From contig SCRI01000070.1 in the NCBI GenBank assembly GCA_004298675.1, positions 1-6,182 of the forward strand: DNA of 6,182 bases. Reading direction: 5' to 3'. Each line of letters begins with the position of its first letter. Position 1 is the first letter of the stretch. The stretch comes from a bacterium. Lineage in GTDB: Bacteria; Vulcanimicrobiota; Vulcanimicrobiia; Vulcanimicrobiales; SCRA01. A program made the position numbers and the translations under genes. Below, in pieces: positions 1,392 to 4,539 of the stretch. The notes beneath the pieces were generated by a model. That model was not told where the DNA came from. It saw only the letters and a list, made by a program, of their open reading frames with translations, and did not search any database.

Positions 1392-1520
1392 CCACACCTA
1401 CGGGGTTAGCTGACGGGTTCGGGCGGAAAGATCGCCCTGGCGCCTCCACGGCGCGTTCACCCCAAAAAAACGGGTCCCCCGCTCCATGACGGTAGGGAGC
1501 CGCCATGGATTCGGTGTTCT
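1392..1520 (-). ncRNA. ydaO/yuaA-type c-di-AMP riboswitch
   Basis: Read on the - strand, this leader carries the conserved blocks of the ydaO aptamer in order. They are CACCGAATCC (1516-1507); a GCTCC/GGAGC stem; GGGGGACCC (1480-1472); GGGGTGAA (1463-1456); and CGAACCCGTCAGCTAACCCC followed by GTAGG (1421-1397). The closing stem P1 is visible as ACACC 1517-1513 paired with GGTGT 1398-1394. ydaO aptamers bind c-di-AMP and usually lower expression of wall-hydrolase or osmolyte/K+ genes when the ligand is abundant. Here the gene controlled is the LysM-NlpC/P60 hydrolase. P1 ends only about 15 bases from the start codon, with no terminator after it, so control of ribosome access is more likely than downstream termination. 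The c-di-AMP synthase operon lies directly upstream on the same strand. Confidence 0.92.
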
Positions 1521-1576
1521 GACGAGCCTGCTTCCGTGGGGGAGCACGGCTAGGGAAAACACACGGCGTACTTGGA

Positions 1577-1630
1577 AGGGGAGCAAGCCCCCTGCCGCCT
1601 CCCCCTTTCTCCTTCCGGGGCTACCGCCCC
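1577..1630 (-). terminator. GC-rich hairpins after glmM; weak terminator candidates
   Basis: Between the glmM stop and the riboswitch, the - strand RNA could form GGGGC/GCCCC with a four-base loop (1630-1617). A second stem, AGGGGG/TCCCCT, has a CTTGC loop (1593-1577). Neither is followed at once by a T-run; the nearest T-rich stretch (GTTTT) comes over 15 bases later. They may end glmM transcription or only slow it. The rest of 1524-1653 has no convincing gene and no clear -10/-35 pair, apart from another small stem, CCGTG 1534-1538 with CACGG 1545-1549, just before the aptamer. Whether the riboswitch RNA starts here or comes by readthrough from glmM is undecided. Confidence 0.2.
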
Positions 1631-1653
1631 CTTCTTCGGCTTTACAGCGTGAT

Positions 1654-3003
1654 CTAGAGCGCACCGTCGCCGGCGGCACGGATCGCGGCGGCGATCTCCT
1701 CCGCCATGCGCATCACCTCGCCGCGATCGGGTCCTTCGACCATCACGCGCAGGAGCGGCTCCGTCCCGCTAGGGCGGACCACGACACGCCCCTCAGTTCC
1801 AAGCGCGCCTTCGATCTCCTCGATGCGGCGGCGCACCGCGGCGTGCTCCAGCAGCTCCTTGCGGCCGCTCCGCACGTTCACCAGCACCTGGGGGTAGGTC
1901 TTCACGCAGGCGGCCAACTCCTCCAGGCGCAAGCCGGAGCGAGCCATGAGCGAAAAGACCGAGACCGCAGTCATCGGCCCGTCGCCGGTCGAGTTGCGCC
2001 GCAAATCGATGACATGCCCCGACTGCTCGCCGCCCAGCGGATGGCCGCCGGCACGCATGCGCTCCAACACGTAGCGGTCTCCCACGACCGTGCGCTCCAA
2101 GCGCAGCCCCATGCCGTCGAGCGCGCGTTCCAGTCCCACGTTGGACATCACGGTCGCTACCACCGTTGCGCCCGGCAACGCCCCCTCGCGCAGCATCTGC
2201 GCCGCCAGCATCGCCAGCACCTGATCGCCGTTCACGGCGTGCCCGTGCTCGTCTACGAAGAGCGCGCGGTCGGCGTCACCGTCGAAGGCCACGCCGACGC
2301 TCCCCGGGTGCCGGCGCACCTCCGCGATCAAAGGCTCCAGATTGGTCGCGCCGCAGGCGACGTTGATGCGCGCGCCGTCCGGCTCGCAATTGATGGCGTG
2401 CACCGTCGCGCCGAGATTGGTGAGTGCCTGCGGGCCGATTCGATAGGCGGCACCGAAGGCGCCGTCCACGACGATCACCATGCCTGCCAGCGGCGCGCCG
2501 TGCGCCGCAATGTGCGCGAGGTAGCGCTCTTGGAGCTCCGGAGCCGCGGCGACGCCGCCGACGCCCAACCCGGTCGGGCGCGGACCGTTGGCAGCCGTGA
2601 CGTCGGCCTCGATCTCCTCTTCGAGCGCATCGGAGAGCTTGAAACCGTCGGCGCCGAAGAGCTTGATGCCGTTGTCGGCGATGGGATTGTGCGACGCCGA
2701 GATCATCGCCCCCGCGGCCGCGCCCGAACTGCGCGTGAGCAGCGCCACGGCTGGCGTGGGGAGCACTCCCAAGAGCAGCACGTCGCGGCCGGCGGAGCAG
2801 ATGCCGGCTACCAGCGCAGCCTCCAACATCGGACCCGAGACCCGCGTGTCGCGCCCGACCACGATCGGCCGGCTCGCGTCGACCTCGTGCGCCAGCACGA
2901 CCGCAGCGGCGCGCCCCACGGCAAACGCCAACTCGGGCGTGAGATCCGCGTTGGCCACGCCCCTGACCCCATCGGTCCCAAAAATGTGCTGCTGCTCGGG
3001 CAC
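1654..3003 (-). CDS. glmM: Phosphoglucosamine mutase GlmM
   Basis: A 449-residue enzyme, the usual GlmM length. It converts glucosamine-6-phosphate to glucosamine-1-phosphate in the cytosol, the step leading to UDP-GlcNAc for peptidoglycan. Visible motifs in order: the N-terminal FGTDGVRG (8-15); the catalytic phosphoserine loop ISASHNP with Ser104; the Mg2+ loop DGDADR (Asp241, 243, 245); the sugar-recognition loop GGEQSGH (324-330), whose form fits GlmM rather than other phosphohexomutases; and the phosphate-binding loop RPSGTEPLLRVMVE (410-423). The start is GTG (3003-3001), seven codons before the conserved motif. AGGAG overlaps the end of cdaR about 13 bases upstream, a rather long spacing. 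The gene is last in the cdaA-cdaR-glmM cluster, 16 bases after cdaR. In Firmicutes, GlmM binds and inhibits CdaA; the same here is inference. Confidence 0.97.
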   Translation of the reverse strand: MPEQQHIFGTDGVRGVANADLTPELAFAVGRAAAVVLAHEVDASRPIVVGRDTRVSGPMLEAALVAGICSAGRDVLLLGVLPTPAVALLTRSSGAAAGAMISASHNPIADNGIKLFGADGFKLSDALEEEIEADVTAANGPRPTGLGVGGVAAAPELQERYLAHIAAHGAPLAGMVIVVDGAFGAAYRIGPQALTNLGATVHAINCEPDGARINVACGATNLEPLIAEVRRHPGSVGVAFDGDADRALFVDEHGHAVNGDQVLAMLAAQMLREGALPGATVVATVMSNVGLERALDGMGLRLERTVVGDRYVLERMRAGGHPLGGEQSGHVIDLRRNSTGDGPMTAVSVFSLMARSGLRLEELAACVKTYPQVLVNVRSGRKELLEHAAVRRRIEEIEGALGTEGRVVVRPSGTEPLLRVMVEGPDRGEVMRMAEEIAAAIRAAGDGAL

Positions 3004-3019
3004 TGCTCGGTCTCTGCTC

Positions 3020-3691
3020 CTACTGACTGGTAGTGACGCTTTTAGGGACGCTGACGTGCACGACGTTGGGCGAGATCGTGATCTCGCCCAACGGGTGCCC
3101 GTTCAGATCGAGGGCAGCCGGCGCCAGTAACGCGTCAAAGCCCACCGTAAGCCGATCGCCGGGGACCTCCGCGGCGACGATCACGATGCGTGAAAGCTGC
3201 GAGGCGGGGCCGCGCACGAGCACCGTCGTGGGCACGACGTTGGCGCCCACCGTTGCAGAGCCCTGCGGCCTTCCGCGATACTGCACGGTCACCGGCAGAC
3301 GCCGCGAGACCAGACGATCGACGCTCACGACGATCGAAGCAGGGCGGACACGCTCTACGTTGATATCCTTGGGACCGACGACGCGCGGCACGAGACTAAA
3401 GGTGCCGGTGCTCAGGCCATGCAGGTCGACGTAGGCGACGAACTCTTTGGACGCAGGCGCGTCGAACGGCCCGCGATCGCCGCTGACGATGACGGTCACC
3501 GTCTGCGCCACGGGTTGCGCTACCAAACCAGCGGCGAGGTTGCGCACGACGATTGGAACCTCGACCTGCTGCGTGATGCCCGCGCGCACGCCCGGGTTCG
3601 CACCGTAGGTGAGATAGGCCCAGGCCAAGATCGCCAGGGCCAGTGAGAGCGCTTTGAGCTTGAGATTGCGCCTGAAGAAGCCCCCGATCAT
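3020..3691 (-). CDS. cdaR: CdaR (YbbR-domain), regulator of the diadenylate cyclase
   Basis: A 223-residue membrane-anchored protein. A basic N-terminus (FFRRNLKLK) leads into one transmembrane helix at about 12-29, after which the chain lies outside the membrane. Two YbbR-like beta domains follow, about residues 40-124 (VPIVVRNLAAGLV ... PASIVVSVDRL) and 130-217 (LPVTVQYRGRPQGS ... VVHVSVP). Known CdaR proteins contact CdaA in the membrane and change its activity. The start is ATG 3691-3689, overlapping the cdaA stop as ATGA, which indicates translational coupling. A longer reading frame continues upstream but only as antisense-like noise inside cdaA. The protein is short: the Bacillus subtilis homologue has four YbbR repeats and about twice the length. 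Identity rests on the anchor, the repeats and the position between cdaA and glmM. Confidence 0.92.
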   Translation of the reverse strand: MIGGFFRRNLKLKALSLALAILAWAYLTYGANPGVRAGITQQVEVPIVVRNLAAGLVAQPVAQTVTVIVSGDRGPFDAPASKEFVAYVDLHGLSTGTFSLVPRVVGPKDINVERVRPASIVVSVDRLVSRRLPVTVQYRGRPQGSATVGANVVPTTVLVRGPASQLSRIVIVAAEVPGDRLTVGFDALLAPAALDLNGHPLGEITISPNVVHVSVPKSVTTSQ

Positions 3692-4539
3692 CCGCGCGAG
3701 CTCTCGGTGCGCTCCACGCGCAGGCGCTGCCGCAGGGCGGTGACCACGCTCTCCACGCGATTGCGTGCCGGTACCGTCGCGTGGATGCAGGCGCGCAAGA
3801 CTTTGCGCAGCCGCTCCTCGTCGTCCAACTCGCGCGAGAGACGTCCACCACGAGCCACCGCGATGTTTCCCGTCTCCTCCGAGACGACCAGCGCGATCGC
3901 ATCGCTTTGTTCGGTGAGGCCGATGGCGGCACGGTGGCGCGTTCCCAGCCGCCGGTCCAGCCACATCGCCTCGGTCAACGGAAGGAAGCAGCCCGCTGCC
4001 ACGATCCGGTCGCCGCGCACGATCACCGCGCCGTCGTGCAGCGGAGCGCGCGGTGTGAACAGCGTGAGCAGCAGCTCCGGCGTCAACTTCGCGTCCAGCG
4101 CCGTTCCGCTCTCCACGAACTCTTGCAGGCCGCTCTGCTGCTCGATCACCACCAGCGCGCCGATCTCGCTGCGCGAGAGGATCGTCGCGGCGCGCGCCAA
4201 GGCCTCCACCACGCGCTCGAGATCCGCGCTCTCGCCCGGCTCCTCTTGGGCCGGATGGAAGAACTCACCGCGCCCGATGCGCTCCAGCGCGCGGCGCAGC
4301 TCCGGCTGAAAGACGATCGGCAACGTCACCGCCGTCCCCAGCACCAGATACTGCAGGAGCGTCTTGAGCACGACCAGGTGCAACATGTTGGCGATGGCCA
4401 TGACGGCGATGAGCGTCAGCAGCCCGAGCATGATCTGCACGGCGCGGGTGCCGCGGATCAGCAGCAGCAGGTAGTAGATCAGCGTGCTGGTTGCCAGAAC
4501 GTCGAGCGCCGCCAGTATCCACGAGGGCACGTGAAGCAT
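3688..4539 (-). CDS. cdaA: Membrane diadenylate cyclase CdaA (c-di-AMP synthase)
   Basis: A 283-residue enzyme that condenses two ATP into cyclic di-AMP at the cytosolic face of the membrane. Three hydrophobic helices lie at about residues 8-28, 33-53 and 56-77, followed by the linker FQPELRRALERIGRG (77-91) typical of CdaA. The DAC (DisA_N) domain covers about 105-265. The catalytic DGA motif is at 169-171 within APLHDGAVIV, and the ATP-binding RHR motif at 201-203 within LGTRHRAAIGLTEQSDA; both are intact. The tail VSEETGNIAVARGG is also typical. The start is ATG 4539-4537, which shares one base with the upstream gene's TAA stop (TAATG), and the end overlaps cdaR (ATGA). The gene is therefore the second of a tight four-gene block. 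No phosphodiesterase for c-di-AMP is visible in the window. Confidence 0.97.
   Translation of the reverse strand: MLHVPSWILAALDVLATSTLIYYLLLLIRGTRAVQIMLGLLTLIAVMAIANMLHLVVLKTLLQYLVLGTAVTLPIVFQPELRRALERIGRGEFFHPAQEEPGESADLERVVEALARAATILSRSEIGALVVIEQQSGLQEFVESGTALDAKLTPELLLTLFTPRAPLHDGAVIVRGDRIVAAGCFLPLTEAMWLDRRLGTRHRAAIGLTEQSDAIALVVSEETGNIAVARGGRLSRELDDEERLRKVLRACIHATVPARNRVESVVTALRQRLRVERTESSRG

Follow-up and report, generated by a model that had tools for sequence, protein, structure and literature searches.

A c-di-AMP riboswitch aptamer between cdaA-cdaR-glmM and a wall hydrolase gene recurs across Vulcanimicrobiales and suggests translational control of wall cutting

We analyzed a stretch of 6,182 nucleotides (nt) from a bacterium of the order Vulcanimicrobiales (phylum Vulcanimicrobiota; assembly GCA_004298675.1, contig SCRI01000070.1), referred to below as the window, in which genes for the synthesis of cyclic di-adenosine monophosphate (c-di-AMP) are followed on the same strand by a c-di-AMP riboswitch aptamer and a cell wall hydrolase gene. 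The lineage is part of a group of bacteria from soil and groundwater that has received little study. The best explanation overall, to which we assign a probability of roughly three in four, is that the aptamer gates translation of the hydrolase as an OFF switch, that it serves as an output arm from the diadenylate cyclase CdaA, and that the adjacency goes back to an ancestral, co-transcribed operon.

A covariance-model search placed a full-length c-di-AMP (ydaO/yuaA) aptamer at positions 1526-1381 of the - strand (RF00379, 95.1 bits against a gathering cut-off of 38, E-value 3.4e-22, model positions 1-134 of 134), with the core CCGAACCCGUCAGCUAACC intact and matching the consensus. An earlier note on this DNA, made from the sequence alone, had predicted a ydaO aptamer at 1392-1520 in front of the hydrolase gene; the aptamer is there, and the proposed boundaries were slightly short at both ends. 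The gene expected in the note to be under its control does follow it (1378-635, - strand) and encodes a secreted peptidoglycan hydrolase with LysM (PF01476, 6.6e-9) and NlpC/P60 (PF00877, 2.3e-35, 121 bits) domains. Its start codon is a UUG at 1378-1376, a signal peptide is evident, and the translation contains the DCSG, SHVG and FAHSS motifs as well as MRSLLIAGALMCALASPALAA, with the Cys-His-His residues in place.

The upstream genes named in the same note were all recovered by family matches, on the - strand, in the canonical cdaA-cdaR-glmM order and tightly packed as in an operon. The first, cdaA (4539-3688), encodes a membrane diadenylate cyclase (TIGR00159, 250 bits, over the cut-off) with CdaA_N (PF19293) and DAC (PF02457) domains and with DGA and RHR motifs. 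It is followed by cdaR (3691-3020), for a membrane-anchored YbbR-domain protein (PF07949, 4.7e-8), and by glmM (3003-1654), for a phosphoglucosamine mutase (TIGR01455, 541 bits, cut-off 447.55); CdaA and GlmM both passed the curated NCBIfam equivalog cut-offs. As read from the sequence, the cdaR ATG overlaps the cdaA stop (ATGA), and the cdaA ATG overlaps the stop of orfX (TAATG), a probable first operon gene for a conserved hypothetical protein of 174 amino acids (5063-4539, - strand). With a gap of only 16 nt between cdaR and glmM, orfX-cdaA-cdaR-glmM is probably one transcription unit. A sigma-70 scan returned no promoter in the whole window and is therefore uninformative on promoters here. 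The orfX product had no Pfam or NCBIfam match, and homologues sit upstream of cdaA in relatives; this placement, the overlap with the cdaA start and the lack of a family match make it a candidate new CdaA partner.

The components of this arrangement are single in the 3.03-Mb, 98.5%-complete genome, which contains one RF00379 match, one diadenylate cyclase domain and one NlpC/P60 domain (PF00877). A full c-di-AMP pathway is plausible from gene content, because the genome also encodes a PgpH-type 7TM-HD protein, a candidate c-di-AMP phosphodiesterase, and, elsewhere, one DHH protein that is a candidate for c-di-AMP breakdown. At least one cyclase domain was present in 59 of 60 relatives and exactly one in 58 (none was detected in G006, and G060 has an extra weak match). 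The NlpC/P60 domain is likewise single in most of 30 relatives, with a second full domain in G005 and G013.

The case for translational control comes from the 3' end of the aptamer, which in the window reads GGAAAGAGGA-CAGGT-TTG. A hairpin-loop strand, UCUUUCC (1431-1425, - strand), is a perfect 7-bp complement of GGAAAGA (1393-1387, - strand), located just 3' of helix P1, and this tail strand shares 2 nt with the Shine-Dalgarno (SD) sequence of the hydrolase gene, GAGGA (1388-1384, - strand). The crystallised ydaO construct has a loop/tail complementarity of the same kind (CUCCUUCG/CGAAGGAG), and RNA-Puzzles calls the pseudoknot stable (PMC5393176). In relatives, at least 5 Watson-Crick pairs are possible between the two segments in 82 of 90 loci and at least 6 in 70 of 90, and in about 80 of the 90 an SD-like core either shares bases with the paired strand or lies immediately next to it. 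Helices of at least 6 bp are possible for 49 of 64 distinct loop/tail pairs, compared with a mean of 37 and a maximum of 47 in 1000 shuffles of the partners; that is, loops and tails pair better with their own partners than with swapped ones. The helix type varies with lineage (UCUUUC/GAAAGA, UUCUUCC/GGAAGAA, UCUUUCUC/GAGAAAGA and UCUUUCACG/CGUGAAAGA), and the pairing is mostly compensated.

The position of the start codon is likewise much the same in most relatives. The first in-frame start lies mostly -2 to +8 nt from the aptamer 3' end, with a GAGG-type SD within the tail, and in 84 of 92 loci it is TTG, which is unusual conservation for a weak start codon (under the first-in-frame rule, the TTG chosen in a few g18 loci is too near the SD, and another TTG follows soon after).

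Together, these features suggest the following mechanism. At low c-di-AMP, the purine tract GGAAAGAGGA 3' of P1 would be free, and the ribosome would bind the SD and initiate at the weak UUG. As CdaA-made c-di-AMP rises, the folded aptamer would close P1 and the loop-tail pseudoknot. Given the SD and the loop/tail complementarity, a pseudoknot stabilised by the ligand would base-pair with the 5' half of the SD tract and bring structure right up to the SD core, and hydrolase translation would drop. Wall cutting would thus be restrained at high c-di-AMP, the only NlpC/P60 hydrolase of the genome being placed under the product of its only diadenylate cyclase. We consider translational OFF control likely, because the pseudoknot tail strand overlaps the SD, because relatives have no consistent terminator and because there is a precedent in the nlpC gene (cg2402) of Corynebacterium glutamicum, where the aptamer is a c-di-AMP OFF switch, most likely translational, without a canonical terminator (PMC9960051).

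Several points weigh against this reading. The SD core and the pseudoknot overlap by only about 2 nt, and occlusion would therefore be partly steric. The pseudoknot test with one locus per genus was marginal, with 47 of 2000 shuffles equally good, and the minimum-energy fold without the pseudoknot was not distinctive (z-score -1.7). Weak terminator-like matches lie within the coding start in 12 of 90 loci. We found no binding, expression or transcript data for this phylum.

Terminators also bear on whether the aptamer could instead control nlpC transcription, by termination or Rho-dependent attenuation, in the style of the B. subtilis ydaO aptamer, which regulates kimA, the gene behind it, at the level of transcription (PMC9960051). 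Terminators do follow the aptamer in other parts of the phylum, and also in Chloroflexota, where a simple scan found one in 10 of 25 loci; in the same scan no consistent terminator was found after the aptamer across the loci of the relatives. Furthermore, in nearly all loci the SD and the start codon fall within the aptamer tail or immediately behind it, and a terminator ahead of the start would not fit. We regard transcriptional control as improbable.

In order to place the arrangement in its lineage, we scanned 149 genomes across the phylum with RF00379 and found the aptamer in 99. We inspected 108 aptamer places with their flanks (one listed place, G077:C19:208679, was left out). In 85 of the 108 loci glmM lies directly upstream of the aptamer on the same strand, and the NlpC gene comes next wherever the contig continues. 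The earlier note had staked its proposal beforehand on a gene-order comparison finding the adjacency in more than this one genome, and the glmM-aptamer arrangement is indeed present in 79 of the 87 genomes of the order that carry an aptamer; 6 genomes in a second family of the class have it too. Such conservation rules out chance adjacency. Vulcanimicrobium alpinum WC8-2 (published as alpinus) is a cultivated and sequenced type strain of Eremiobacterota (Vulcanimicrobiota) with a Gram-negative envelope (PMC9758169); it matches as a candidate carrier of the same gene order among the 79 genomes of the order. Chloroflexota, the one group compared beyond the phylum, have aptamers in 23 of 151 sampled genomes, and none of 30 aptamer loci there has a glmM or cdaA that could be detected within 1.5 kb.

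The remaining loci are diverse. A single gene stands between glmM and the aptamer in four (G013, G117, G005 and G085): a glycosyltransferase of the PMT_2 type in G085 and an M61 peptidase in G117, where it was scanned, with the inserted genes of G013 and G005 read as the same family. In three others the aptamer-nlpC unit is away from glmM, either about 13 kb off on the same contig (G020) or on another contig (G038 and G053), and in three the contig breaks just upstream of the aptamer. The other 13 of the 108 aptamers stand before other genes. Most aptamer-less genomes of the order have no detected glmM or a contig ending at or just past it; in G090, about 1.4 kb beyond glmM contains no nlpC and no aptamer match. 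Conversely, four genomes of the second family (G075, G076, G081 and G082) retain glmM-nlpC without a detectable aptamer, and a search for partial aptamers in them yielded none at E-values up to 1. Co-location thus appears from the gene orders to be favoured yet dispensable, because losses run both ways: the aptamer is lost, or the aptamer-nlpC unit has moved. Co-location is also not needed for sensing, because aptamer-nlpC persists apart from glmM in the seven genomes with insertions or separated units.

At loci L130, L134, L135 and L136, where glmM and nlpC are neighbours, the homology matches are 280-650 nt apart and no aptamer is detectable at E-values up to 1, possibly through loss or with another control RNA in its place.

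The interval between glmM and the aptamer is compatible with co-transcription. It measures 127 nt in the window (1653-1527, - strand), with no intrinsic terminator found in it, and ranges from -16 to 338 nt over the 85 loci (median 108). Read-through from glmM into the aptamer, which the earlier note had also raised, is plausible from these intervals, because only 2 of 84 have a terminator-like element and because the gap is at most 24 nt in 10 of 85 loci, one of them overlapping; a promoter inside glmM may act instead. The upstream transcription unit would then, possibly by read-through, extend into the aptamer and the hydrolase gene. Most likely, the adjacency would reflect an ancestral wall/c-di-AMP operon held together by co-transcription, and by itself it would provide no sensing.

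How much regulatory meaning the adjacency has is a separate matter. The order may be merely inherited, with glmM and the wall hydrolase sharing a growth-linked promoter and with c-di-AMP control real; this is compatible with the gating mechanism, and we consider it quite possible, somewhat short of an even chance. An order common to two families is what descent predicts, and both the four relatives that keep glmM-nlpC with the aptamer undetectable and the separated aptamer-nlpC units fit it as well. However, the order has been kept in about 35 genera despite diverged intergenic sequence, with gaps below 25 nt in several lineages, which suggests selection for co-transcription.

A stronger proposal is a purpose-built feedback loop, in which CdaR reads wall status and tunes CdaA, the hydrolase product closes the loop, and the adjacency was selected for the circuit. 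The order is conserved across the class, there is one synthase, one sensor and one NlpC/P60 enzyme per genome, and in S. aureus GlmM directly inhibits the cyclase DacA (PMC6368335), which is only a lead for the window locus. Nevertheless, we consider such a loop improbable. Being located downstream of cdaA, the riboswitch has no cis control over that gene, and c-di-AMP diffuses. The aptamer-nlpC pair survives apart from glmM or with one-gene insertions, glmM-nlpC survives without a detectable aptamer, and CdaR has a single detectable YbbR domain. The compact loop envisaged in the earlier note accordingly stands in its parts (intact CdaA, CdaR and GlmM families, a real aptamer, a wall hydrolase as the gene under control and a conserved adjacency) and not in its closure, and the feedback through outer YbbR domains suggested there would have to run through a CdaR with one detectable domain of this kind. 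The arrangement is better described as an output arm, because a riboswitch downstream of cdaA, cdaR and glmM cannot control the synthase in cis.

The individual parts are known from other systems, and the lineage-wide linkage appears new within open-access papers; our open-access text searches turned up neither a study of c-di-AMP in Eremiobacterota nor a description of this gene order, which subscription surveys of ydaO may list. A close likeness is to the C. glutamicum nlpC riboswitch, in which a ydaO-type aptamer also directly precedes an NlpC/P60 gene, again with no canonical terminator, and for which an OFF switch of translation, with a pseudoknot located at the ribosome-binding site, has been proposed (PMC9960051), as we suggest here. 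C. glutamicum differs in that DisA makes its c-di-AMP and in having further NlpC/P60 genes and one more predicted ydaO aptamer (PMC9960051), whereas here CdaA is encoded immediately upstream, and aptamer and hydrolase are single-copy, in a diderm phylum. The cdaA-cdaR(ybbR)-glmM operon of Bacillus and Staphylococcus has the identical three genes in the same order, but in the window the run continues into the aptamer and the wall hydrolase. The rpfA riboswitch of Streptomyces coelicolor, as cited in PMC9960051, likewise puts a c-di-AMP aptamer without a canonical terminator over a wall-lytic enzyme; according to that citation, the enzyme family is another one and the reported effect is at the transcript level.

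Our finding suggests that c-di-AMP controls wall cutting, probably at the level of translation, in a diderm phylum. It bears on two open questions, namely why wall hydrolase genes are placed under c-di-AMP aptamers and whether turgor is the main purpose of c-di-AMP. Because the pathway here comes down to a single synthase, a single aptamer and a single NlpC/P60 enzyme, all at one locus, the link from synthase to hydrolase can be tested directly, free of the redundancy found in the Firmicutes and Actinobacteria models. More tentatively, and we think rather unlikely in its full form, Eremiobacterota might possess a dedicated chromosomal module of one synthase, one sensor and one hydrolase, in which read-through, in a diderm cell, couples the hydrolase message to CdaA and GlmM. 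An aptamer acting on translation, with the SD inside its pseudoknot and followed by the conserved UUG, would then veto hydrolase production proportionally to the c-di-AMP level.

Other aptamer loci of the phylum add some minor observations. A second c-di-AMP aptamer stands before a GT4-type glycosyltransferase gene at L056 (G022, scanned) and L074 (G104, similar), and L054 (G051) resembles these loci with a poor reading frame; these loci might be tied to compatible-solute or envelope sugars. Additional aptamers occur in the second family at L112, L115 and L122 (G077, G078 and G088), where they precede secreted proteins resembling one family, and the one of the three that was scanned, from G078, had no Pfam match. 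In other classes of the phylum, an aptamer and terminator precede a KdpA-like gene at L127 (G072), and an aptamer precedes a lytic-transglycosylase-like gene at L125 (G069), both named from the sequence.

Two elements near the aptamer were considered and set aside. A block GGGAGGAGA-N12-GGTAAACC lies 70-100 nt upstream of it in several genera (L007, L013, L027, L086, L101 and others); as a promoter or second RNA it was rejected, because in other genera part of it coincides with the codons for the C terminus of GlmM (EEI...GKP-stop) and because it had no Rfam match. We make no claim for a conserved hairpin immediately 5' of the aptamer, whose mean z-score over 35 genera is only -1.5. At the edges of the window locus, rsgA lies on the + strand, divergent and upstream of the - strand run, and orfY (586-197, - strand) follows the hydrolase gene. 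In many relatives (L007, L013, L014, L026, L027, L086 and L101), a tRNA gene is located shortly downstream of nlpC.

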